Source of the DNA: Adineta ricciae | Taxonomy: Eukaryota > Rotifera > Eurotatoria > Adinetida > Adinetidae | DNA length: 64,000 nucleotides | Direction of reading: 5' to 3' | Assembly (NCBI GenBank): GCA_905250025.1 | Contig: CAJNOJ010000056.1 | Location: 62,001 to 126,000, forward strand | Shown: piece after piece, positions 3,560 through 44,835 of the stretch | How positions within the stretch are numbered: position 1 is the stretch's first letter | How the letters are laid out: every line of letters starts with the position of its first letter | Notes under the pieces: generated by a model | The model's database searches: none | What the model saw: the letters and a program-made list of their open reading frames with translations, nothing else | What the model was told of the DNA's origin: nothing | Translations under genes and position numbers: made by a program

Positions 3560-6500
3560 ATGGAAAATCAAGGTATCTCGCAAATCTCAATTTTGTTCAA
3601 TTATCGATTTTCATTTCTTTCTTTCTCTCTCTTTTTCTTTCCTCTACAGAAGAACATTCAATAAACATACCAACTAATGATCATCATGGTAAAGAAATCA
3701 AAATTTCAATAGTTACAATTTCATCGTTTTTTAATAGAAATTTCATCGAATGATTGTGTCGAAGGACTTGCTTTGTCAATGACAAGAATAATTGAAGGGG
3801 GTAAAATGAAAAGAAATATTCTTGTTCACCTTGCATAGACCTCCTACACTCGTTTTTTTTCTTTGTACATATATAGATACCTATCCGATCTCAGATAATG
3901 ATTCAGCAACAGATTCAATGTATATAATCGACACGAACATTGGTAAATTATCACAAACTAATAACGAACAAGGTGAATTAAATCGTAAGTAAAACACGTT
4001 CGGAGGATTTACTTTTTGACACTACGTTCAGCTTTCTTGTTGAAGAAGCAGAAGAGAAATAAGACCTTCAATTAAATGTATCTTCTCGAAATGCGGCATT
4101 CCACTGACTGTAATGTTGCATAAGCATCACAATCACTGTAGTACGTGAAAGTGTTTCATTTTATTCGTTTTTTTTTTGCTCGAGATTAACTATTTCTCTT
4201 CTCTCTTGTCTATCTCTTCTGATGTTCATCTATTTGTCAACACACCGACCTCGTCCCGTCGTCGATTGTCGACAAAATGACAAACACTACTTGCTGTCGT
4301 TGTCTCTCATAACTTGCATAAACCTATCTAAACTTCAATCATGATCTTTCAACTCATCGTATTCCATTTCCTTTCGTTTTCGCCTCTTCTTGTTATACAT
4401 GCCAATGTTGAAACATTACATTTCGAAAGTGCCTGTCTACAACAAACGAATGCCGTTCATTTAAATCTACGTTGTTCACAATACGAACATATACAAATCG
4501 TTCGCGTCATCTACGGTTATACAAAACAAACTCTACTGCAAGAATGTCAGTTCAGTATCTACGATTGTATACAAGAAGGTACCAGTCATAATATTCTTGC
4601 CTGTAACGGGCAACAAACGTGTGTAATCAATCTAACCAAGAACGAAATGCTTTCATCATCAATCACAACACCAGGTGTACCAAGCTGTCCGGATTTTAAT
4701 TACGTTCAAGTCAACTTCGGTTGCATACCGGACTCGAAAGACATTTGCGATACGTGGAAAGATGAAGGACCAGTTATACATTTGAGTCATACTTATTCAA
4801 AAGATCGAGCGTTCAATCGCTGTCACTGCAAAGTTCGTTCGTCGATGCCGAATGGACAAGTTTTACTTCAGGCACGCGAGATCAATCGGCAGCATACGCT
4901 GTTGAGATCTTTAATCTATCCGAAATCTTTCGATCTTGAGTGTAAGAAAATGACCTATCTAGAAATTGCCATATCGCGTTCGGAAAGGAAATGTATGGAC
5001 ATGTTACCGACCAATAACATAGCTCTGTTTGGTTCTGGTTCGCATAATTTTACTTTAACTTACGTACGAAACGATCCTTTCTCGGAATTGTTCTTTTATT
5101 TCGAATTAAAAGCGAGCCCAGTGAAAAAGGATCATAATGTACAAATTATTTGCAATTGGGGACGACGACAAACAAAAGTAACAACAACGACAACGATAGC
5201 ACCAGCATTGACGACAGCGATTATCAGTACGACAATACCACGATTGACAAAAAAACGAAAAGCAACAACGGTGAATATGCAACGTGGAGGAAAACTAAGC
5301 CGATTGGATCTCATTCGACATCAGCCGCAAGACAATCAGAACGATCATATTGAAGTAGAAGATACAACGAATATGTACAAAAGCGAAGAAGAGATACCAT
5401 CGGAAGGGGATACCGAAGGAGAAGGAGAAGGAGAAGAATCAGAGGAAGAGCCGCTGACAACAACACTTCCAGTTCTAACATCAAGAATTAAAAAATCTAA
5501 ACGAACAAAAATCTCGACTACACCCAAAACGACGACAATTCCCGACACGACCAAAACAGCTAGTGTTTCACCTTCATCATCTGATGATGAAGAATGGTTA
5601 CGTATATTATCTCTAGCTAATATTGATTCTCAATCACATGCAAAACAAATATTATCAATCAATAATCGAACATATGTAACTGCAGCTCAGGCATCAGTTA
5701 TCACATCCGATCAAAAAATTCGTTCACCTTCATCGAAGCCAAATACTCTCGTCATTATTCTTCTCATTATTATTTCTTTAACATTTCTCGTCCTAATAAT
5801 CTATTGCCTGAAAATCAAAAAACCCAACTGTCTTGAACGTTTGAGAACAAATGCGAATGTTGCCTTTCTTTTCTGTTGTGAAGCGAGTAAACTATTGTTT
5901 TGTTCGCCAAACGATTCACCTCAACGATCTCAGACGACATCAAATTCACCAACAAGTACAATTGGCAACCGTCGGCATCGCCGTCGACACCATCGACCTT
6001 CACCATCCGTGCCTGATTATCAATCAAGTGAATACTATATGGATGAAACAGGAAATAATTGTCGTACAACACAAAGTATCTATGATGGTGGCGGTGAAAA
6101 ATCAATCTATAGTATCGATTATGATGAAGAAGAAACGGAATATACGACAAAATATGGTCGACATAATAATGACGGCGGCAGTTGTTAAGCAGAATGAGCG
6201 AGAATTTCATTGCCTTTTTCATTCTTACCTTTTCCTTTTTTGATCGTTTAGAACGAGTAGATTGTGTCTTGAGAATACTCTCATTTTTATTGTATACGTA
6301 GACGCGAAAAAAAAAGAATATATATGTTCCTAAGTGTGCGATTAGTATCGGAAATAAAATCAGCACAAAAATAACAATATGTAATTAATAATAAAATATT
6401 TCTTTTTGTTTTCTTCTATTTATAGACAGTATATCTCAGGATTCGTTGACTAACGGTGAACAAGATCATAATAAGAACAATAGCAATCAGAATAGTCCGA

Positions 6501-13376: not shown

Positions 13377-16300
13377 ATGTTGATACGATCAATTTTGCTT
13401 CTTTTGGTATTTCTAACCGTGATCTCGTCGAGTACATTGTTTGGCAATTGGAGATCGAAGTTTCGAAAATACAAAACCAAAGCCAAAGATAAAATCACGG
13501 AGAAAATCCATGAAAAATGTAAGTGTCAATCGAAGAAATCTTTTAAGTCAATAATCACTCATAAATAATGTTTCATGTTGTGTGTATTCACTTTGATTTC
13601 TCTTTCATCTCAATCATTAATCTCCAAGTATCGTCTATATAGAAACGTTTATATACATGTATTGAAAGAATAGAAGACAAAGATAGTCGATCTTGAGATA
13701 TACACGCGACAAACACTGTGTGTGTCCTCCGACCCGCGACACAATGCATTTTCAAAGTCAATTATCGTTCATACGACGAGAAGATGATGGTCAAAATATT
13801 TTATGTCTACTATATACACATACATACATTAAGAGGACGACTGTAATGTATTACATATATACAGACACTTGTCTGAACAATTATACACGTGAAAGAGATC
13901 ATCAGACACGCTTGCGTGTACCTTGATTGAGTACTAAATAACTCTAATGGAGACTATTATTGTTATGTACCGGATAAACGAAAAAGCGTTGTTCATTTTT
14001 CAATGCTATTGAAAAATTCGACAATGACAGAACCAATCCGATCATGTTTTGCTATGTCTTGAAATTCGAGTCGATTCATTGAAAATTATGAAAGATTTTA
14101 TAAGGGAATCACGAAGGGTGTCAACTAATCAATTAGTAATTGTAACTGTTCCGTTTAATGGACAGTATCAATTATCGTATCTACTCGTTTTTTTTCCTTT
14201 CGTAGCTCAATGTCCAATTGCATGGCAATATTTCGCTGCCTCGTGCTATTGGAAGTTCCCAATTAAACGTTCATGGAGTGAAGCACGTCACGAATGTGGA
14301 AGATTTCGCGCAGATCTTGTTGTCATCGATAGTGATAATGAATTTGATTATATCGCCAGAAACCTAACCGATCTACGAGAAGATTTCTATGTGGGATTTC
14401 ATTATTTCAACGGTAAAGGCTGAAGAGTTTTGCATTTCATATAAAAATCGTCGCATTTTTAGAATCATGGTCGTGGATTAATGGCCGAGCTTTATCAGAT
14501 TATACATATTATACCGAAGATGATCTATGTGAGAATCGATTGCCAAGCGAACCTCGTCATCGTTCGTGTGGTATTCTTGATCGTGCTCGTCGAGGACGAT
14601 TATGTATGAATGTTGATGTGTGTGATCGAAAATTGAATTTTATCTGCGAAAAAGGTATGTTTCTCATCTTCACTGTTCATTTTGTAGTCTCAATACGAAA
14701 TGATATTTTTTTCTCAGTGGTCGATCGGTGCAGTTCGTTGAATGATATCTGTGGTAAACATGGTCGATGTGTGAATACCGATGACGGTCAATTTCGCTGC
14801 GAATGTCATTTTCTCTACGGAGGAAATCGATGTCGATCAAGTATGAGGAGATGGGGAAAAGAAAGGAGCCGGGTTTAACTTTTCTATTTTGTTTAGTTAG
14901 TCAAGAAGGTGGTCAAGTCATCATGGCAGCAACATTTGTTATTCTTGCATGCATAACTCCGATCCTACTACGATCAATCTATAGAATATTGAAAAAGAAA
15001 TTAGATCGTTCTTCAGCCATCTATGGTAAACTTCATTGTTTAGATAACAGGTAAGAGCAGATTTCATGTCAATATTGATAGTGTCACTCGATTGAGAAAT
15101 TACGTCATCAGGCAATCGATTCTCTATTGTTCTTTGCGCTCGAGAACAATTTCACATGCAAATAATGAACGAACTTCATTTGATTTTAGTATTTTTGGTC
15201 GACCGAAACATAAACTTCGCCATGAAAGAAGACAAGACAAAAGCCTCGACAGCCTTTTCAAATTAATCTCCACTCTTTCCTACACAAACTTCTGCAATTC
15301 ATCCACTTTTCTGCTTATCATCAGTACATTGCTGATCGCAGCATTTTGTCTCATAACTATACCATTCGTTCAATATCGTCTTTCTCTCCCAGCCATATCA
15401 AATCACAGTAGTAATGTGACGTTAACACAAAAACTGAATTCAACTATCCGTCGGCTCTATCAATGTCAACAGTTTGATAATTATGTTTGGCAAAACTTTG
15501 TTTCATTACCATTCGCTGTTCTGGTGACATTCATATGTTCGTGTTTGAGAAAACGCGATACATTCTGTCTGCAATTCTGCAATGGACGCCCATCGATACC
15601 GATACCGTTTAATCTGTTCGATAAACGACAACGTCATGTCATCGCAGCCATCTTCGGCATATCGGCGAACGAAGTCTTGAAAATCTTAGAAGAACTTCTA
15701 GTTCGACTGAATGCGAATTATACCGTCAGTAATGGTGGAATCATCGTTGAACTATTAAAACGAATTGGAGTAGTATTACTCATTGGAATGAGATACTTTC
15801 CAGTACTAGTGACGTAAGTTGTTTTTATCAATGGAAGAAAAGCGAAATTCTGATAATTTTTTTAGTATAAATATTGCGCATCCACTCTCCTATGCTCTTG
15901 GATTGATCTATACATTTCTTGATGGTGCTTATTCGTTAGTTTACACAAGCTATTGTTCGCGTTTTTCGTTATTCCGTTTTGGACGAACATTACTCTTACA
16001 AAAATCGGCTGACGAATTAACTCAAGCAGATATAATTTACATTATTGTTCGAAATTTTCCACATTTTCTATTGATATCATTTGTATTCGTCAAGTTTGCC
16101 TTCTTATTAATGCAACAATTGAAATGTCGGTGTTGTCAACAAGCAACTATGATCGATGGAAAGGTTCATCAAGTTTCATTGGTTTCATCGACCCTTTCTG
16201 TCGATTTATCAGTGCCTGATTATCAAACAAAACCAGAATTTCTCTACACACAAGGTAAATTGTCCGTATAGATTCGAGTCTAATGAAAAATCCGAATGAA

Positions 16301-18019
16301 ATTCTAGGTTTACTGAGCAGTAAAACACCTTCTGACATGTATTATAACAATGTTCTCACACGTCCATTTGCCAAAATCTATCGTTGGCATCGTTATTTCA
16401 CATTTTCCAATCAAATTCTTGCGACTTACACAGTTGTGCTAATTGTTATTCATAATCTCACATGTTTATTAACCTTCTACGGTATTAATACCGTGAAAAG
16501 TTATCTCGATCGTATCCATTTATTAGTGCTCCATCAACTAAACTGGGATATCGATTGGGGTACAACTTTTGTTAATGATCTTTTTCTCTGTTCAATTATC
16601 TCGGTTCTTATTTATTGTTCACAAATTTTCAATGGCTTAATCAAAATTCAACAGCATCTCGTCGCTGCCTATGCCGGAAAGTATCTCGATATTCCTCCTC
16701 GTCATAACTTTTCCAATAATGAGCTCATGTCGAAGTGCTTACACTTCTCTGGTTATCTGTGCGGCTATACAGCATGGGGTTTTATTATATTTTATAAAAT
16801 TTCCTTTGTTTTCTGTCTCCTTCTCCGTCTATGGATTCGTTATGATTCTCGATGGTTTCAGAATATGTTGGCTATATGTTTACCAATCGTATTGGTCTAC
16901 TTATTGAAACATATTCTCATATCTATATTATCCGAATTTGTTTTCTTGCAAAATTTTGGTCGAACACCATCGTTGAACAATCGACGGATCTATTTCATAT
17001 TTAGTTATTTTAACTTTTTCTTCGATTGCTTTCTTGGCATTTTATCATGTTTTATTCGGGTATCCAAAGCAGTTTTAGCTTCGTTTATGTTCATGGGAAG
17101 ATTAGATTACTCATTTATGGGAAGAAATCTCGAACGGTTAGATCAAGGCTACGCCACATATGTTACTTTTATTCATATGGAAGTTATTCATGGACATCCA
17201 CTGATGGGTAAGACATGTGACTCATACTACCTTTGAATATTTCACCATCCGTTGTAAAGGACAGTTGGTAGATAAGAATGAGAAGTATAGAAGAACGTGA
17301 GCCACGATCTCGGTTCGAAACTTATCTTAAGAGACAAAAGCTTGATGATACGATCGTTAAAAATCATCCTCGATGGTTGAGGTGGTTTGATCATGAACTG
17401 GAATCAACTCGGTACTCACGTTTTTGCTTTGAATTTTTCAGTAACTTTTTGTGATATTGTTTGGCATGAGATCGAACGAAAACGTCGCATCAATCAACAG
17501 TCGAAAACCAATAAATTAGTGTATGATAGTATCACACATACACGAGTTCATCTCGCTCGGTTCAAATGGCAACTTTGTTATACACTAGTTCGTAATGAAT
17601 ATTTGAAATTTCTTCGAAAGCATGCGCTGTTAGTTGCAACCAACGGCGCAGGTTTAATATCGTCGACAACAGCAGCCGCTGTTGTTCTAACTGGCAATTC
17701 ATCAGACGAAAAACAACGGAACAATGAACAGCATTCATCGATTTTATTATATGATCGGCCAATAATGAAACAGCCACCGATTCCAGCCAAACGATCCGGT
17801 TATCGATATAATTTTGATTACGAACAGACAAGTGATCTTCGTTTTATCTATCAACAATTGAAATGTTTAACAAACAATGTTGCACAATTGAAGAATCCTA
17901 ATCGACGAGACAATGACGTGGACGAGATTTATCTCTCAGCGGATCAATCCGAAACGAAAAAACAGCCGTCACAAGTAACTTGTACATTTCACAATATGCC
18001 AACCATCCAACGTCGATAG
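13377..18019 (+). CDS. C-type lectin-EGF-STRA6 fusion, multi-pass membrane protein
   Basis: Nine exons: 13377-13518, 14206-14412, 14463-14654, 14718-14840, 14897-15050, 15112-15813, 15866-16254, 16308-17207 and 17442-18019. They total 3387 nt in one frame, about 1128 residues. Exon 1 encodes a signal peptide (MLIRSILLLLVFLTVISSS) and a Lys-rich linker, with a consensus gtaagt donor. Exons 2-3 encode a C-type lectin domain (CPIAWQYFAASCYW, then SWSWING and LNFICEK); classical EPN/QPD and WND calcium/sugar motifs are not seen. Exon 4 is a six-Cys EGF domain. A transmembrane helix follows (residues ~245-270), then a STRA6-like region with about nine or ten hydrophobic segments. STRA6 hallmarks include RYFPVLVT, GRNLERLDQGYATYVTFIHM, HPLMVTFC and ARFKWQLCYTLVRN. 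Human STRA6 (667 aa) takes up retinol from RBP4. The ligand here is unknown. Confidence 0.82.
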
Positions 18020-22701: not shown

Positions 22702-25700
22702 TTATAAATCTTCTATGCTTATATGGACGAAAATAGTTCCATGAATGTAATCACCATCTTTAGCTTTCAATTTAATATGCCTATAGCCGAGTTGTAGTGC
22801 TGTAAATGGATAGCAAGCTTGGCCAAGAAACGACGAGCCACTATGCCGATCTTCATCACGTACTTGAAATTTGAGTAAACATAACTCCGGACAATAAATA
22901 TCTACATGACATTTGTAATTCCAAATCGGATTTAGGCCATTATTTCGTACAGCAGGTGTACGATGTTTGGTTGAATCTACTTCAATACCATATGTACTGA
23001 TTTCGACATACGGATCAGAAATATCTGAATCATTCGGAGCATTTTTTTCCTTTGGTAGATGTTGTCCGCTAATCACTTGTATTGTGATACGTTTCGCCTT
23101 TCTCTGGACGGCATTTTTTGGATCGAATGTTGGGTTATCGGACAGTAGAAATGATGGTTTGAGTAAATAACCACATCCACCATTATCACTAAAAAAACCA
23201 TATTGAAGACACATTGATTCATCATTCTTTTGATAATTCAATGCAGCCATTTGTACACCTAAAACAACACTCAGATATTTCGTTGTAGTTCGATTTACAG
23301 TGGCAGCGTTTTACCATAAGTCCAGTAAGTCATCGGATTTATATTGCTCGAATCTTGTCGTTTGGTTCCCGGATAAACTCGTACTAGATGTTTGCTTGTT
23401 AGCTTGATCATATCTAAATGTTCGGGTGAATTGACTTCGATTAAATCATCTGCTTTCGATTCTTTGAACGAAATCGAATGGATACATTTCTCTATTTAGT
23501 GCAACAAAAATTCATTTAATGAAATTTGAAGTTCAGAAATGAATCTTTACGTGTTGACATTGTATGCTCGATGTTTGTAAATGAGACAATTTGAGCATAT
23601 ATAATCAGTTTAGCAAATTCAGGATGATAACTCTAAATATGTACGGTTAATTTCGAAGATGAACATAAGACAAGGGGATGAATACTTTAGGATTTGGTTC
23701 GGTTTCGTCGTTGCTTCGATTAGATTTCGGATCAGCTGGTAGTTTGCCTTTTGGATTTCGTCGACTCTATTATATCAAAAGACTTTCGTGATATGTTAGA
23801 AATTGATTATGATCATTACCCGAATAAGTACTTTATATTTCAAATCCTCTGGAGATGGCAATTGATTGACTTTTGACCTTAACGGTTCAGTTAACAAACG
23901 ATCTACGACAGAGAAAATATAGCAAGTTGGTACAAATCGATGGAAATGAATAACCTTTAAATATACGCTTTAAATGTCTTGCCATCACACCTTGTTGCTC
24001 GTATGAGCAATGATTTTCAATATTTAAAAAGAGTGGGTATCTATGAATAGAGGCAAAAATTGACATAAGTTTCCTAACAGCAATGTTTTCTTACGGTGAA
24101 ACCGCAAATGCTTGCGTTTCAATAGCAAAAAGAATTTCATGCAGAGTGATTGCTCTGGTCCAGGTATTTGCATGATAGACAATCGGTTCGCCATCTTCGC
24201 CATCATAACAATCCACTAGAAACTCTCGCAATAAGTAAAAGCACAACAAACTCACAGCACAGCTTACTTTCTACAGCACGACAACCTGTTCGTAATGCAT
24301 GAATATATGTTTCGGGTGTGCAGTCACCATACACTTGACTGTCACGTATATAACTAATAAAACGAACATTATATTGCTAGATAACATTTGAAAGATGTCA
24401 CATTACGTATTATGCGATGTAGCAATGAAATAATCGGTGATTGGTCGCGTCATATCTTGATAAACTCGATGCGCTTTATCAGCATTCATTAGACAAAATT
24501 CATCATGAAGTAAGAATAACCGCAGACCATCGACACCGATTTCTTCACAGGTCGATCCTTCGTCGGATGGTTCGAATTTGGCGATTAATTTCGAACAATC
24601 TTCAATGGTCACATCTCGCATATGTTGTTCTTTCTGCAAGAATTTTTGAAATTGCTCAACAGTGAGGTAATTATTGTCATGAACGGTCTTCGTCAATGAT
24701 GGAGAGCGACTCGTGCCAGTTTTCTTTCGTATTTTCGGTCGCGGTTGAGCATTAGATGGCTGACTTTTCGACGAGGACCTCCAACAGCTGTTTGATAACA
24801 CATCCGGCGGTTGACTAAGTGGATTTGCATGCGACAATGTCGAAATAACTTCATATTTAGCAAGAAAGTCTGCCAATTGTTTCGGAGTGCTGCTATTATA
24901 CCTAGAATTCGGTGAGAAATCGAATGCGATTGTGGAGAAGAAAAAATGCATACTTACTGACAAAGTATTTTAATTAACTCCGGTCGATATGAAACAAATT
25001 TATAGAATGAAATAAACTCATCTTTGTCTAAATTTCTTAACTCGTCATAGTTGTCTCGACGAATATTGGCTTGATTAAAGTACTGATCGATTTCTCGCTC
25101 ATCCAATTCGATATTGAGTAAGAACAGAAGCCGTCGAACTTCACGTCGATTTAAATGGCCGGAATGATCATGATCGGCTTCCGAATACATCGACCAAAGC
25201 CATCGATCAGTTATTTCGTAATGAGAACGAACATGAGAACGATAACGACCAATTAGATATTCGAGACCTTGAATCCATTGTGAACGAATTTCTTCCGAAT
25301 CAGCAAGTAGATCAAGCGAATGTCGATTATTATCATAAAGAATCGAAAATGCTAAGTGAATTTTATCGTTCGTTATTTTTCCTTTACGTAAATATCTCTT
25401 CCAAACAGTCGTGGTAAAACCGGATCGAACCTGATCAATATCTTTGATCTTACCTAAAAACAACCAATATTATGATTCATCACATAAAAGGATGAGTAAT
25501 ATTTTTACATGCTTCGTGTTTGGAACGATGTGATGATCCTTGGTAATGAATCGCGTCTTCCGATAAATTAAGATAATAGATTCGAGCATAAGTTCGGCCA
25601 TTAGATTTGTGTTTAATAAATGTAACTCGACGTTTGAGACGATCAACCAAATTGCGTTTCTGCAATTCAGTCAGACCAGAGGGATCTATACTCATCAATC

Positions 25701-32037: not shown

Positions 32038-33447
32038 AATTGTACGTTGATGAAATGGATTGAAACTAGAATACTCAGACGATTTTTCGTATAATAAACG
32101 TAATTTCTTTGTTTTTTATTATTGCATCTCAACTCCAATAGAAACACGTTTTCTTGTACGATAGATGTCTCCCAGTGACAGTGCGAGATATATTTTTCAA
32201 CGCGTGGATTTCTGAACGTATTACTGCAGTCTACAAACGACCGACAGATTTAACACGATCACCATCATAAACAGAGTTCTTTCTCTTTGTCGAATGTTAA
32301 CATATGACTATTTTAAGATTGAACGCAGCGTACTTCTCGCATGAGATTACAATATAGAATAATACTTCGTGCGCGTTCTTTCATTCATTATTATACTGTT
32401 CCCTTTTAATCCTCATCATTTCGTAACTCCTACATGAATAATTTTACACCAGACGTCAAAGGAACGTTCGTTCGTCTGACTAATTTTGTTTGCCTAAGGG
32501 CAAATTTATTTTGAGTCATTAGTAGATGCCTCTCGAATAAACGAAACAAACGCTGAATTGCAAAGAGAAAAATCCACGACGTGTACACGATCCATAAATT
32601 ATTTGTGTTCGTAAAAGAAAAAAAATAGAAAGTGTAGTGTTTCTCGTCGTTTATTTACGACGAAGAAAAAAGGGTGATTAAAGGAGGGTTGGAGAGCATA
32701 ATGGAGATGAGGGCAAAGGAAAAAAAAGAGAACAGGAACATCAGGGTAAAGCAGAGAAAGTTTTCATCATATATATAGAAATTCCATCGTAAGAAAATCT
32801 TTGTCTTAGATTCAGAATAGGTGTATGTTTTCGATGTTTGCCTTTTCGCGGTGAAAGAGCTAAATATACTAGACTTATTTTGCACTCCTATTTGCGTTCT
32901 ACTTTTTCAGCGATACTCTTATCGACGATTCTAGGTCATTATGACGATGGGGAAACAAAAGATTTCGATTATTCGTCATGGAAGTTAAAGGTACAGATAA
33001 AAGTCGTCGATAACGATGCCTCGAACTCGCTATCTACAAAAATAACTATATAGAAAGAAAATTCGTTCGTTTAACTTAGAAGAAGTAAATTTTCATCAGC
33101 TAGGTTGGGATAAATATCTTATTTTAAGATTTATTATCGGTTTTCGACGAGCAGTCATGATGAGAAAGGCTCGAGAAAGTTGTTTTTTTTTTCTATTATC
33201 TAGATAAAATATCATGGTGCGATAGATGCCCTTATACTTATCAGAGATTGTATTCGATATACTACAAATAGAATATAAAACTCGATGTTTCTGAGCAGAA
33301 CTAGTATTTTCCTCTATCAAAATATTTGAAAAATGTTATCTTTCGAGTTGATTTTTGTTATGTATATAAAGCGTGGTGGTCTTCATTTTCTTAATATCAA
33401 TCTATTTTAGATTGTAGACAAGAGTCGGTTTATAGCATAATATAACA
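32038..33447. other. Divergent intergenic region, RANGAP1 / desaturase
   Basis: A 1.4-kb AT-rich region between two divergent genes, probably holding both promoters. A TATA box for the desaturase is visible at 33363-33370. ORFs here (for example 32655-32885) show no domain features. Confidence 0.5.
33363..33370 (+). promoter_or_regulatory. TATA box of the desaturase gene
   Basis: TATATAAA followed by GCG lies 78 nt upstream of the desaturase ATG at 33448, the usual spacing for a TATA box plus a short 5' UTR. Confidence 0.55.
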
Positions 33448-34890
33448 ATGGTGTACATCATCGACGAAGACAAGACGTCGAGCACATCTATGCCGTATGT
33501 TCCAACACCATTAGATTTGCCGACTCCAGTTATTGAACGTAAAACAACACCGATAACTGAACAAATGGCAAGTAGATTTCAAGCATCCAAAGAAGAAGAG
33601 GAAGATTTTATCAAGAATAATTACGTTGCACGAACGTTATTGAATGAACCTCAACTACCACCTGTGACCTGGTCAAACTGGTATAAACATGTCAACTGGC
33701 CTCAAGCAACCTTATTATGTCTTGAACCTTTCGTCGCACTCTACGGTCTATTCACAACAGCATTTATGTGGCAGACGGTCGTTTTTACAATCATCTGGTA
33801 CTTTCTGACTGGTTTTGGTATTACAGCTGGTTATCATCGTTTATTTGCTCATCGTTCATACGAAGCTAAAACACCATTGAAATATTTATTGTTGGTTTTA
33901 GCTGCAGGCTCAGTTCAAGGTTCTGCTCAATGGTGGGCACGTGGTCACCGAGCCCATCATCGTTATACTGATACGGATCTCGATCCATACAGCGCACACA
34001 AAGGCATTTTTTATTCTCACATTGGTTGGTTAATCTTCAAACCACGTCGAAAACCAGGCGTAGCTGATATAACTGATCTTTCACGTGATAAGACTGTTCA
34101 ATGGCAACATCATCATTATTTGACATTGGCTTTCTTCATGGCATTTGTTTTTCCCACTCTTCTTTGCGGTCTCCTTTGGGGCGATTATCGTGGTGGTTAC
34201 TTTTTTGCCGGTGTTCTCCGTCTCGTATTCGTTCATCATTCAACTTTCTGTGTTAATTCATTAGCACATTATCTAGGTGATGCACCATTCGATGACCGAC
34301 ACACACCTCGTGACCACTTTATAACCGCTCTTGTCACACTTGGCGAAGGCTATCACAACTTTCATCATGAATTTCCATCCGATTACCGCAACGCACTCAA
34401 ATGGTTCCAGTACGATCCAACAAAAAATCTTATTCAATTCTTCAAAAGGATTGGACTTGCTAGTAATCTTAAAGAATTCCCTCAAAATGAAATTCAAAAA
34501 GGTCGTTACACAATGGTACGTAAAGCACTAAATCAATTTGGACGAACTATCACTTGGCCAAAAGGCGATGAAGAATTACCGTTGATTTCTTATGAAGAAT
34601 ATCAAGATTTAGCAAAAAAGGACGATGGTCGTGTACTAGTCTTAATCGCCGGCTTTATTCACGATGTTAGCAATTTTATTGATTCACATCCCGGTGGTCG
34701 AGCGTTGATTCGAAGCTACGTTGGCAAGGATGCGACTGTTGCATTCTACGGTGGTGTACATGATCACAATACTGCAGCACACAATATGCTAGCGATGATG
34801 CGAGTTGCTGTTTGTAGATATGGTGGTGAAGTGGAACATCTGAAGAGAAGATTAGGACATATCCAAACGCCGACTCCTATTTTTGCCTAG
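33448..34890 (+). CDS. Delta-9 acyl-CoA desaturase fused to cytochrome b5 (Ole1-type)
   Basis: One uninterrupted ORF of 480 residues. A membrane desaturase domain (~65-340) has the three His boxes HRLFAH, HRAHH and HNFHH, each in Ole1-like context (HRLFAHRSYEA, HRAHHRYTDTDLDPY, EGYHNFHHEFPSDYRNA), and hydrophobic pairs around ~88-125 and ~225-265. A C-terminal cytochrome b5 domain (~385-465) has the haem-ligand motif HPGG in FIDSHPGGRALIRSYVGKDAT and a second His region near YGGVHDHNTAAHN. Fungal Ole1 has exactly this arrangement, whereas typical animal SCDs use a separate cytochrome b5. It should introduce a cis-delta-9 double bond in stearoyl/palmitoyl-CoA at the ER. AATAAA lies about 70 nt past the stop. 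Confidence 0.92.
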   Translation: MVYIIDEDKTSSTSMPYVPTPLDLPTPVIERKTTPITEQMASRFQASKEEEEDFIKNNYVARTLLNEPQLPPVTWSNWYKHVNWPQATLLCLEPFVALYGLFTTAFMWQTVVFTIIWYFLTGFGITAGYHRLFAHRSYEAKTPLKYLLLVLAAGSVQGSAQWWARGHRAHHRYTDTDLDPYSAHKGIFYSHIGWLIFKPRRKPGVADITDLSRDKTVQWQHHHYLTLAFFMAFVFPTLLCGLLWGDYRGGYFFAGVLRLVFVHHSTFCVNSLAHYLGDAPFDDRHTPRDHFITALVTLGEGYHNFHHEFPSDYRNALKWFQYDPTKNLIQFFKRIGLASNLKEFPQNEIQKGRYTMVRKALNQFGRTITWPKGDEELPLISYEEYQDLAKKDDGRVLVLIAGFIHDVSNFIDSHPGGRALIRSYVGKDATVAFYGGVHDHNTAAHNMLAMMRVAVCRYGGEVEHLKRRLGHIQTPTPIFA

Positions 34891-35031: not shown

Positions 35032-38000
35032 TTATAATCTTGTACTGATGATATTATCATCATCGTCATCATCATCATTGTCGCCGTCGTCGTAAACACC
35101 ATCACGTTGAATATCTACATGAACAAATAGAGTTGAATAAGTTTGATCGCAATTATTCGCTCGTAGATGAATATGTCGATAGCCTAGAAGAAAACAAAAC
35201 ATTTTATACTCTTCTCCGGAACAGTTAGCGATCAATAACCTGTTTGAAGCATTGTAATCGGTGAACAGAAATATGCCAATCGATCATTGTTCGTGATCAC
35301 ATCATAGTCCATAACACAAAAGTAGATGAGGCACATTTGAGGAAATTTGATGCGAAAACGAAACATTTCATTCCAAATTGGATCAAATCCATTATTATTG
35401 ATAACTTTTGTTCTTAATACATGTTCATCACAACGCATACCGTGTGTTGATAAGCGAACAAATGGATCAGGTATATCAGATGATTTCAAATTTGATCGAG
35501 GTAGAAATTGCCCACTAATGATTGTTATCGTTACAGTTTGAGAATGATCGAAATTCATTCCGATATCCCATGGATTGAATTGTGTGTCTTCGGCATGACG
35601 CAAATAGTCCGGTTTTAAGATATAACCGCAACCACCATTATCAAGAAATTTACCGTGACAAAGTGCGGTCATATCATCATCGTTTTGATAGTTTAAAGCA
35701 ACCATTTGAACACCGAAGTTCCATGCTATGATTGGATCAGGATTACTTGAATCTTGTCTTAAACCACCTGGATATAACCGAAGAAGACGCCAAGTTGTCT
35801 GCTGAACTAGACCAATGGGATCGCTCTGTGCAAATTTGTAGAAACGATTTTCTGCTAATGACGATGATTGAAACGATGAATCTTTAAAAACAAAAATTTT
35901 CACAACATGTTCATGTCAGTATATTCAGAGCTTACAATTCGCTCTGGCATAATCATATTCACGAAACGGGACATTTTGCAAATATACAAATAATGCAGCT
36001 AAGTCAGGTTGAACATCCTACATTAGTCGTCGATATGTAAGCATGACAGAAATTTTGAATTAGTGTATAAATATATACTTTGCTCAATGGATTCAGTAAT
36101 GTGTCATTATCGTCGTCGTCATCATCATCATCTTGACGTTTTACTACTGATGATAGTTTCTTACTCTGAATAAGGATGCATAGGAAAAATCAACTTCTTA
36201 CGAATGTCTACGAACTCGAATAAGAACTTTATGTTTCAAATCTTCTGGTGATGGCAGAACCGATGGATTTTTGCTAGGCAATGGTTTGGTGATCAAACGA
36301 TCTAAATTTTTGAGAAAAAACAGGATACCAGCGATGTATAATGAGTTTCTACTCACCACCGAGAATTCTTTTCAAAATCAATGCCATTTTCTTTTGTTGT
36401 TCTAACGAGCAATGATTTTCAATATTTAAAATAACTGGATATCTAAATTTCGAAAGTGGAATGGCACACGAAGAGTATACTCAAGATTTACGGTGAGGCT
36501 TTGAAGAGGTTCGGCTCGATTGAACGAATGATTGATTCAAATGAACATGGCTTCACTAATGTATGAGCATGCTTGACAATTGGACTACCATTACCACCAT
36601 CGTAGCAATCAAGTTCAACTGCCCGGCAACCCATAAGTAAAACGCGATTATAAGCTTCTGGATTACTGTCACCCGATATTTGACTGTAAAACAAGTAACT
36701 AGAGTACAAAACAAGCAAGAATCGAAGAAATTGAACATGGGATTTTCATACGTATTATGCGAAGTGTTGATATAGTAATCGCATAACGGTCTAAAATATT
36801 GAAATATATATTCATCATTATCAGTCGATATGAATTTTCACTTGACAGACTATACCTTGTCATATCTTGATATATATGACGAGTGTGAAATGGACTAACG
36901 ATGTCAAAGTATTCAGATAATAACATATTACGAAAACCTTCGAGAGCAGGGAAAATGCTTCCGTTGTCTTGTTATAGAAAGTCAACTTACCATCGGTGCC
37001 TAATAAGTTTTTGTCTCGTAATTCTTTATTCAACTCAAATTCACGAATTAACTGTTGCACTTCTTCGAGACTGATCAACCTCATCGTCTGTTTATAGTGT
37101 AATCGTAGGAAGGATAGTAGTTGATTAGCATTGATGAAAACAGTTTCCATCGGTTGCGTGTAGTTAAGATTGGCATGTCTAAAAACAAAGTACGAAAAAG
37201 ATTTTGCCAAGAAACTCATAGATTTACTTTTTTAGAATAGCACAGATATCTTTTCGGCAAGTTAATAACTGGAAAAAATTGATGAATTCATCTGAATTTA
37301 AAAGTCCTTCCTTCGATTTATCGGCTTTCTAGAAAGAAAGAGATTTTGCAACAAAATTCGTCAGTAAAACAAAGTTTTACATTAAACATTTGTTCGAATA
37401 TATGCTGTGGCAGTTCAACATTGAATTTATTGGCAAGTAATTCTCGACATTCATTTTTACTCAATGTATTTGATCGATTCTTATCCGCAGCATGAAAGAA
37501 ATCTAAAATCCATCTAAAAAAGAAACATTGATAAAAACTCGTTTCCATCTTTATCTCTTACTTTTTCTCTTGAATCAAATGATATTGAGTCTTCTGCGCA
37601 TGTCGATCCATTAGATGTCGCAGACCTTGAATCCATAACTCACGTGTACTGAAATCAGGTGCAATTAGATGTTCTTCTTTTCGATGATTGTCGTACATTA
37701 TTGTAAAAACGCGTTGATCCTAGACGTGAGATGTTTATAAAAGAGAAGATTGCAACAACAAATGAAATTATACATCCATATCATTGATAACACGTTTTTC
37801 GAGCAAATGATCGAATCTCGGTCCACGGATGCCTGGTCGAACTTCATCGATGTCTTTGACATGATCTGAACTCGATCGGGAAATATTTTTCTTGAAAATT
37901 TAGTTGAATAAACTTACAAATCCTCGGTTTACCAAACAATTTGTGTGATTTCTCGTAGGAAATGTAACCTTCACGTTCATGAAGATAAAATTGCCGCGAG

Positions 38001-41317: not shown

Positions 41318-42401
41318 CTAGAATTTTCGATTTACTGAAATGCCAAGTTGCGATGCTGCAAGACTCATACGTCTGATTGTATCCATTTTTTCTTCGAATT
41401 CTTCTTCTTCTTGATCCCGTTCTAAACATATTGACGTAATACGATACGTTTGAAAGAGTAGAATCAGGAAGTTCTTAAATGTGAAGAAATACGTTAGAAA
41501 CGATCGTACACGATAAACAAAAATGGCAACGAGACGAACAGCAAAGAACGGACCGTCCTGCAACGACAATGTTACCAAGATCGACCAAATTTCTGATCGA
41601 AGAAACTTTGCTGAGCGTTTCTTGACGAAGATCTTGACACTTTCTGCAATCGACTTTCTCGACATTTGTTTCGAACGTGAAGCATGCCATAAAGACGAAT
41701 GTAATGAATTGAGAGAACCAATGGATAGGCGAGGATGCATTATCGGACGAGGAATAGTTGAGAGTAGATTGACTTCCGGAAATGTTGGTTTTAGGACTAT
41801 CAATAATAACAAATTTGATATCGTGTAGGAATGGCAAAGTTAACTTACCTAAACTATTTTTACTTTCTCGCATTTCGAGATTTTCATTGTGAATAGGATT
41901 TTCAAAAATTGTAACTGATGGATTCACGATTGAAAACGAGGCTGCACGTGGTTTAACTCGCGGGGTTTGGTTTGCTGATGTTGTCGTCAATGGACGAGCT
42001 GTAGACGACGATGGTGTCGTACTTGGCATGAGTTTATTCAGAACCTTTTGATGTATTGGTGTCCGTGGTGGCAATTGATGAATTTCATATTCTGCTTCGT
42101 CAAACTCAGCATGAAATGATCGACCACGTGTAGCCGTTAGGTTCAATGCGAATTGAAACATACACAAGGAAAAGACAACAAGAACAATATGAACCATAGG
42201 TGAACTTAAATAAATCTCCTTTTCACTGAATAATGTTAATAAATCCAAAATATCCGATGCAAGTGACAAATAAACCAACAGCAATTGTGACAATGCACTA
42301 TGTGATATATTTCCTTTTGGCAATAACCATCGACCAAGAATGATAATGAACATAAATGACAACTCAACCACCATTGCGTCATCTACGCCCCATTCTTTCA
42401 T
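41318..42401 (-). CDS. TMEM26 C-terminal cassette B (alternative end or truncated copy)
   Basis: Two exons, 42401-41848 and about 41793-41318 (phase 1). They encode the TMEM26 second half: FIIILGRWLLPKGNISHSAL, QLLLVYLSLASDILDLL, then LQDGPFFAVRLVAIFVYRV and FKNFLILLFQTYRITSICLE. The exon begins with ATG but is directly preceded by a good acceptor (ctgatttag), and it is in phase 0 with the exon ending near 44306. No N-terminal TMEM26 exons fit in the 112 nt between it and the stop of cassette A. It is either an alternative 3' terminal cassette of the TMEM26 gene or a 5'-truncated tandem copy with its own start. A 90-residue Ser/Thr/Pro-rich insert separates the two membrane halves and is absent from cassette A. 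Confidence 0.7.
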
Positions 42402-42513: not shown

Positions 42514-44835
42514 TCATGCTAAGATAAACTGAGTTGTTGTTGATTCAGGTAATGGGAGAGGTGATGGCAATCGTTGCGATGATTGTTTATCGAAATCGAT
42601 TTGTTCATCTTGATCCATGTGTTCAATGCAAATCGACCAGAGACGATAGACTTGTAAGCATAAGATAATTAAATTTTTACAGGTGAAAAATATCGTGGTA
42701 TAAGATTGCACTTTAAAATGAACAACGGCAATACAACGAATGATAAGAAATGGGAGATCTTGCATAAGAATTGTCAGAAATATCGATGGTAATTCACTGT
42801 TTGCAAGCTTTTGACAAATGGAAAGGACTCGATGTGGCGGTCGACGTTTTTGCTGTTTGATAATGTTCAATTGATTGTTGGAAGTCATACTATCGGATTC
42901 GTAACGAAACGTTCGGCCGCGTGAGGCAACAAGATTCAGACTAAATTGAAATGTTGACCAAGAGAAGACCGCCAATGTCGAATAGATCATTTCTTGATTC
43001 TTAATCACTTTCTCTTCTTGGAATATTGACAAAAGATCGATCATATCTGATGCTAACGAAAGATAAACAAGTAACAGTTGAGAGAGTGCAGATCGGCTAA
43101 TCTTTCCTTTTGGCAATAGCCATCGTCCGATGATAATTATCATTAGAAACGTCACTTCGATTACCACAACCCAATCGTCAATGGTTAGAGGTTTTTTCTA
43201 AAAACATGCCAAGATGGTCCACTGTCTCGTTTCGTGCACATGCGATCGAGCATCGAAAATGCTGGATTTTATATTCAAGAGAAAGAATTCATTTTTTTTC
43301 GGCTATTTCTGTGCTCTGTGGAACATCTATATTCGAGTTGAAGACAAAAAGAACATAAACCAACGTTCTGTCATAGACTAAGGAAGAACAGGAGAAGAAA
43401 AAGAGCGACGAGTAGAAAAAAAATAACGTTATTCTATAGATCAACACAGCGCCACGTTGCACACGCATGTGCCCTTGACAAGCATGGAAGAGAATGACGA
43501 TGAGCAAGTTCTACCAGCTAAAGCTACCAATGAAGATATAGCTAAAGTCTTAGGTGATCAAGAATCGGTCGAAGATGAAGAAGGAGCAAATGATGATGTA
43601 TTCGTTCATTTAAAATCCTCGTCAATCATATCAATTTTGGTCATTGTTATGATCACTCTTGTTTGCATATTAGCAACAGGTTTATTAATCAATACGATTC
43701 TTCGAACACATAGCATTACTCGTACATTATCGATGTATTTCGGTTTTAAAACAAATCGTACGATCGACGAAACGATATTAACATTTTGGGAACCGAAAAG
43801 TATCTCCAATAAACAACCAATAGAAACAACTACTACGACCACCATCATTAGTTCTTCTTCATCTTCGCGTCCTCCTCAATATATCTTAAGTACTCGAGAA
43901 AAAAAAGCTCAAATCATCTTTCGGAATTTTATTCTTCCAGCGCTATTTCTGCTATCTATGCTCTGTGGTATTTTCGCTTTTTATATGCGTCGTCATCATC
44001 AGTACTATCCTGCTTGGGGTGCTCGACCACGAATACCTGAACGGTATATCACTCTCGAACTCAGACCTCCGAAAACTGGCGCTCACTAACAAAATTGTTG
44101 TATTTTTCCAGTTTGTTATTGTTATGTACTATTGAATATAAAATGGAATATATATATAATCATGCATCATGCAATCGTTGTCTTCTTTCACGTCTCACCT
44201 TTTGTAAGACTAAATTCTATAGAATTGAATTCGATTGAGATTTTATGTTTCGAGAGAAGTTTATACGCAGAGAGAAATGTCAAAGAAAATGAAATGAAAT
44301 AAAACATACCGTTTTATCGTTGATATTTGCTTTGGAGATAAGACCTTTTTCGATTAATAGTTCCAGTTCTCTGCCTTCAGTTTGATTGAATGGTTCACGG
44401 CCAAGTTTAACATTGATTCGATTGATTTCGAGAAACCATATCGGAGGAATCATCGTGCAAATGTAAAGAAAAAAGCATGGAGAAAACCTAAACACGAATA
44501 ACTTCGTTGTTCAATCAATCATCAACGAATATTTACCATTTCGGTTCTTTGCCTAAAACAGACACGAATCAAACATGAAACGCATACTCGAGTTTGAACA
44601 TACCTTTTCGTTTAAAAATAGTAACAATCAATTCAATAAGAAGAAAATTCACTCCACACATGTTTAACAGATACCAATAATCTCCCTTTGTGATAACTGT
44701 TCGCACGATTGCGATCGTTGCATGAAGTGCAAAAATCACTCGAATGATAATCGCTTTTAATATATCGAATGAATGGCATATCCACCGACCGCATTCACGT
44801 AGAGTTTCTTCTGTCTTCGACATCCCGTGATACAT
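42514..44835 (-). CDS. TMEM26: TMEM26-family multi-pass membrane protein (cassette A)
   Basis: Exons are about 44835-44604, a short exon near 44555-44540 (GKEPKW), about 44490-44307, then 43200-42514 after a 1.1-kb intron. The N-terminal half has hydrophobic segments ALHATIAIVRTVI and YLLNMCGVNFLLIELIVTIF, then KWFSPCFFLYICTMIPPIWFLE, matching TMEM26 (KWFSPAIFLYL in human). The last exon carries IIIIGRWLLPKGKISRSALS, QLLLVYLSLASDMIDLLS, LMQDLPFLIIRCIAV and KNLIILCLQVYRLWS. TMEM26 is a conserved membrane protein of unknown biochemical function, known in mammals as a beige-adipocyte marker. The long intron contains an antisense gene, and a second copy of the final half follows at 42401-41318. 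Confidence 0.82.
43484..44089 (+). CDS. Two-TM protein nested antisense in a TMEM26 intron
   Basis: Single-exon ORF of 201 residues from the ATG at 43484. The N-terminus is acidic (~1-45), followed by a transmembrane helix (~48-74, SIISILVIVMITLVCILATG). A loop follows with a possible N-glycosylation site (NRT) and a Thr/Ser-rich run (~115-130). A second helix (~150-175, FRNFILPALFLLSMLCGIFA) leads to a short basic, Pro-rich tail. No family was recognised. It lies entirely within the 43201-44306 intron of the opposite-strand TMEM26 gene. Conserved coding character could not be tested, so it may be lineage-specific. Confidence 0.55.
   Translation: MEENDDEQVLPAKATNEDIAKVLGDQESVEDEEGANDDVFVHLKSSSIISILVIVMITLVCILATGLLINTILRTHSITRTLSMYFGFKTNRTIDETILTFWEPKSISNKQPIETTTTTTIISSSSSSRPPQYILSTREKKAQIIFRNFILPALFLLSMLCGIFAFYMRRHHQYYPAWGARPRIPERYITLELRPPKTGAH

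Follow-up and report, generated by a model that had tools for sequence, protein, structure and literature searches.

Results

Gene structure

The window analyzed in this study is a stretch of 64,000 nucleotides from the genome of the rotifer Adineta ricciae. Between positions 13377 and 18019, nine exons join into a single continuous reading frame of 3309 nt including the stop codon, encoding a predicted protein of 1102 amino acids (Table 1). All eight introns have a GT donor and an AG acceptor with compatible phases, and the joined exons are devoid of internal stops, exactly as the original prediction of nine frame-continuous exons had positioned them.

Coding potential was assessed via the codon usage of the window, with 3933 codons from 12 other open frames as training set. 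The proposed frame scored better than the other five in eight of the nine exons (exons 2–9). Exon 1 was the exception, with 0.09 bits per codon vs. 0.18 in one minus-strand frame; as codon usage favors another frame there, exon 1 is the weakest part of the gene model. A tblastn search revealed no further copies of the gene in the window, all eight matches being located on its own exons or their edges.

Several other open frames of the window carry recognizable domains. On the minus strand, the adjoining frames 41475–42401 and 42514–43197 match Tmem26 (PF09772; E 8.3e-29 and 7.5e-48) and are perhaps a tandem pair. Parts of phospholipase C, perhaps from two paralogues, are found on the same strand at 22702–24969 and 35232–35915 (C2 and PI-PLC-Y in both places, EF-hand_like in one). 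A single open frame on the plus strand (33436–34890) combines a fatty acid desaturase with a downstream cytochrome b5 domain.

Table 1. Exons of the predicted gene and the features assigned to them (nucleotide positions refer to the window, residues to the predicted protein)
Feature	Position	Strand	Content
Exon 1	13377..13518	+	Met, signal-peptide-like hydrophobic start (hydropathy peak 2.16, residues 1–19), basic linker
Exon 2	14206..14412	+	C-type lectin-like domain, first half; Lectin_C E 1.5e-10
Exon 3	14463..14654	+	C-type lectin-like domain, second half; no EPN/QPD, no WND
Exon 4	14718..14840	+	EGF-like domain; six cysteines (185, 192, 198, 208, 210, 219)
Exon 5	14897..15050	+	Extra hydrophobic segment a (residues 228–246; 14914–14970; by hydropathy) and basic stretch
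Exon 6	15190..15813	+	Basic loop; extra hydrophobic segment b (residues 312–330; 15305–15361)
Exon 6, also			Sequons 309, 344, 348, 356, 449; STRA6 core begins at residue 376 (15497)
Exon 7	15866..16254	+	STRA6 core; match of the exons 5–7 piece extends to profile position 152 (residue 515)
Exon 7, beyond residue 515			Within the whole-protein profile match (14–605)
Exon 8	16308..17207	+	STRA6 core; loop with GINTVKSYL (16481–16507) and GRNLERLDQGYATYVTF
Exon 9	17442..18019	+	Core end, calmodulin-binding-like segment ARFKWQLCYTLVRNEYL (17555–17605), C-terminal tail, stop

Domain composition of the predicted protein

The N-terminal head contains a C-type lectin-like domain (CTLD). Residues 68–180 match Pfam Lectin_C (PF00059) with 42.2 bits (E 1.5e-10, cut-off 22.6), and the head alone gave an E value of 6e-12. 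Eight cysteines lie in the CTLD region within residues 50–178, six of which fit the set of a long-form CTLD, with 139 and 164 as extra ones. Calcium-dependent sugar-binding C-type lectins are characterized by the motifs EPN or QPD and WND. None of the three was found in the CTLD, which has LPS, EPR, and MNV instead; this domain is thus not expected to bind sugars in a calcium-dependent manner, as the original prediction had suggested.

The EGF-like domain was less evident from the profiles. When the whole protein was scanned, none of the four EGF models among the matches listed reached its cut-off. With the exon 4 peptide alone, PF00008 passed (23.1 bits vs. 21.5), as one of five EGF models among the matches listed. 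The six cysteines of exon 4 occur in EGF order, and an EGF cysteine pattern was found at residue 208 of the predicted protein.

Another candidate for a lectin-like surface protein, possibly the second one in the window, is the product of a long open frame on the plus strand (4332–6188), which has a SUEL lectin match below the cut-off (E 0.0018) and a late hydrophobic stretch.

The C-terminal part of the protein is a STRA6-type membrane core. Pfam RBP_receptor (PF14752) matches residues 376–971 over profile positions 14–605 of 605 (E 6.1e-55, 187.5 bits, cut-off 25), and about 130 residues follow as a C-terminal tail past the profile end. Separately scanned exon pieces match the same profile collinearly: exon 6 alone at 14–116 (E 3e-8), the exons 5–7 piece at 14–152 (E 6.2e-10), exon 8 alone at 233–534 (E 2.3e-32), and exon 9 alone at 561–605 (E 3.2e-5), the last with 23.3 bits and thus below the cut-off of 25. 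The best match in the Protein Data Bank was STRA6 itself (5sy1, the zebrafish structure; E 4.6e-23), covering residues 690–977. With residues 224–745 alone (a query one Glu short), 5sy1 was not found even at E 10 and the sole match was an unrelated protein (E 0.049), so that only the profile match supports the core's N-terminal half. The single-sequence fold predicted for exon 8 on its own had a low confidence (mean pLDDT 53.8). A Foldseek search with this model, which returned seven matches with E values from 5.0 to 9.1 and STRA6 not among them, was given no weight either way.

Near the end of the core, ARFKWQLCYTLVRNEYL aligns to the CaMBP2 peptide of zebrafish STRA6, the sequence of which was taken from PMC7154012, with a score of 52 that was reached by none of 1000 peptide shuffles. 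As judged from this alignment, the predicted protein has conserved the calmodulin-binding segment known from zebrafish STRA6.

The RBP4-binding loop appears to be kept only in part. In PMC9992173, Tyr336, Gly340, and Gly342 are reported as essential for RBP4 binding by STRA6, and mouse STRA6 is given with GINTDVSYL. Seven of the nine letters of this motif are identical in GINTVKSYL (residues 669–677), an identity that none of 2000 shuffles within the loop attained; the alignment score was reached by 26 of 5000 loop shuffles and by 166 of 1000 whole-protein shuffles. If the GINTxxSYL placement, a short and post hoc alignment, is followed, Tyr336 is retained and Ile and Leu occupy the places of Gly340 and Gly342. 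Thus, one of the three RBP4-binding residues (Tyr) is apparently kept, and the equivalents of both glycines are apparently replaced.

These results confirm the gene structure of the original prediction and support its domain parts. Its domain order (signal peptide, CTLD, EGF, STRA6-like region) and its CTLD devoid of EPN/QPD and WND were both recovered, and the hallmarks of STRA6 that it placed toward the C-terminus are reflected in the RBP_receptor match, the 5sy1 alignment, and the CaMBP2 alignment. The profile search proposed at that time for Lectin_C, EGF, and STRA6 was positive for Lectin_C and for RBP_receptor, the latter (E 6.1e-55) in the membrane region for which this comparison had been named as a refuting test; the EGF domain remained below the cut-off in the whole protein, with PF00008 above it on exon 4.

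Extra hydrophobic segments and predicted topology

Two strong hydropathy peaks, segments a and b (Table 1), lie between the EGF-like domain and the STRA6 core, both ahead of the start of the profile match at residue 376. These two extra hydrophobic segments had been missed in the original prediction. The loop of 65 residues from a to b contains 15 Lys/Arg, compared to four in the 43 residues after b, and the stretch after b carries the sequons 344, 348, and 356. Within the core, the hydropathy peaks agree in part with nine transmembrane helices and one intramembrane helix, the second core helix showing no peak at the threshold; all helix assignments are based on hydropathy only. STRA6 has its N-terminus outside and its C-terminus inside the cell.

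As the number of extra segments is even, the head and the N-terminus of the core could both be located outside. The charge bias and the sequons after b fit such an arrangement, with the head outside, the loop inside, and the sequon-bearing stretch as well as the N-terminus of the core outside. Six of the ten sequons (100, 116, 344, 348, 356, and 449) are found where this model places the chain outside, and four (309, 660, 744, and 996) where it predicts an inside or intramembrane location. These four, with sequon 309 at the end of the loop modeled as inside, speak against the topology.

Discussion

We consider it slightly more probable than even (about 0.52) that a single gene at this locus encodes a fused receptor-transporter, consisting of a lectin-like head and a STRA6-family core. 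In this protein, a lectin-like type-I receptor with signal peptide, CTLD, EGF-like domain, and one membrane helix would be fused in frame to an RBP_receptor core that retains a leading helix of its own. From the head outside, the chain would run inwards through helix a, form the basic loop inside, return outwards through helix b, and expose the sequon-bearing segment, before entering a core with the usual outside N-terminus and an inside calmodulin-binding segment. The junction between head and core is predicted from splice sites, frame, and topology, and the exon 4–5 and 5–6 junctions lie outside all domain matches. Searches for relatives gave one pattern match in viral contigs and, with the core end as the only query, 25 pattern matches in bacterial and archaeal genomes, none of which was confirmed; neither collection is meant for animals. 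Because relatives were not retrieved and the fold model was of low confidence, the verdict on the fusion rests on one gene model.

Regarding function, the core may, like STRA6, move retinoid or a similar lipid across the membrane, and the head may keep a protein partner or a lipid carrier other than RBP4 by the outer mouth of the core. The original prediction had suggested that the head may capture a glycosylated carrier or particle. A more specific proposal, which we regard as unlikely, is that an invertebrate has evolved a carrier-capturing vitamin A receptor of its own, in which the lectin-like head, fused together with its membrane anchor to the STRA6 core, replaces the RBP4-docking loop and, within one polypeptide, delivers to the core the lipid of a carrier other than RBP4.

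Lectin and EGF modules are frequent in receptors, and a CTLD without EPN/QPD and WND would be compatible with a head serving simply for adhesion or folding, attached by a real fusion to a retinoid channel and devoid of any carrier role. We judge this possible and somewhat unlikely. Nothing specific argues against it; a head close to the outer side of the core would fit a binding role, by inference only. Similarly, with two of the three RBP4-binding residues named in PMC9992173 apparently not retained, the core might move another lipid or a sterol rather than retinoid, or act as a calmodulin-coupled sensor. The conservation along almost the whole RBP_receptor profile argues against this second possibility, which likewise lies on the unlikely side.

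Alternatively, the locus could give rise to two products: a secreted CTLD-EGF protein from exons 1–4 ending in intron 4, and a headless STRA6-family protein from exons 5–9, transcribed from a promoter within the locus or trans-spliced to a spliced leader at exon 5. Exon 4 reads into intron 4 without interruption up to a stop ending at 14878, so that a secreted head is possible. Followed upstream, the reading frame of exon 6 meets a stop at 15041 before any ATG, and its first Met is residue 473 inside the core; the whole core therefore needs an upstream exon, which speaks for the fusion. Among 14 ATG-donor pairs that could be spliced in frame to the acceptor of exon 6, six have a plausible donor, which in four of the six is the donor of exon 5. 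The starts at 14803, 14830, 14851, and 14923 (Met231) are open through exon 5 into the core and would yield headless proteins. Moreover, PMC6053224 and PMC12460157 mention rotifers among the organisms that use trans-splicing, which makes a two-product locus conceivable. On the other hand, introns 4 and 5 both have intact splice sites with matching phases, and intron 4 is short (56 bp) and contains neither AATAAA nor ATTAAA nor any of the four variants sought. AATAAA and ATTAAA are absent from all introns, but this point is weak, as both are also absent between 18019 and 18738, at the gene's own 3′ end. Overall, we rate two products as rather unlikely.

From the ATG at 14851 onward, intron 4 also has no stop in the exon 5 frame, and intron retention combined with a start there would lead to a headless product.

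As for artifacts, profile matches speak against a chance open frame for exons 2–4 and 6–9 (exons 1 and 5 being without such a match), and an erroneous assembly join is largely excluded, since the window contains no N and introns 4 and 5 span just 56 and 139 bp.

The fused receptor-transporter proposed here combines features of two known groups of proteins. The order CTLD, EGF, and membrane helix is that of selectins and of CTLD group 14 (thrombomodulin, CD93), and in the Protein Data Bank search a P-selectin chain aligned over residues 69–223. In contrast to these proteins, the predicted protein has a single EGF-like domain and lacks the canonical sugar-binding motifs, and we know of no STRA6 core in selectins or CTLD group 14. 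With STRA6 and RBPR2 (PF14752; 5sy1), it shares almost the whole core profile, the calmodulin-binding segment, and apparently the loop Tyr. Unlike them, it has a CTLD and EGF head, two extra hydrophobic segments, and about 130 further C-terminal residues, and apparently replacements at the positions equivalent to Gly340 and Gly342 of STRA6. According to PMC4584289, STRA6 has nine transmembrane domains, and the RBP-binding domain is located between domains six and seven.

A STRA6-family protein in a bdelloid rotifer is not new as such. In Table 2 of PMC12220480, Adineta vaga FUN_025721 bears the annotation Stimulated by retinoic acid 6-like protein and is assigned to PF14752, the same family as found here; the table names at most one Pfam family per gene and would not show a CTLD besides it. 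The same paper lists this STRA6-like gene as one of the 25 with the strongest under-expression in spaceflight. As such a gene has already been annotated in a bdelloid there, possible novelty lies in the fusion and not in the presence of the family. A CTLD-STRA6 fusion was not reported among the papers listed by the literature searches, which is weak evidence, as these covered titles and the openings of abstracts. The retinoic acid passages in PMC3846280 concern an RXR-like receptor and were set aside.

A well-conserved STRA6-family core with its own binding head in a bdelloid would allow asking what role such proteins play without RBP4.
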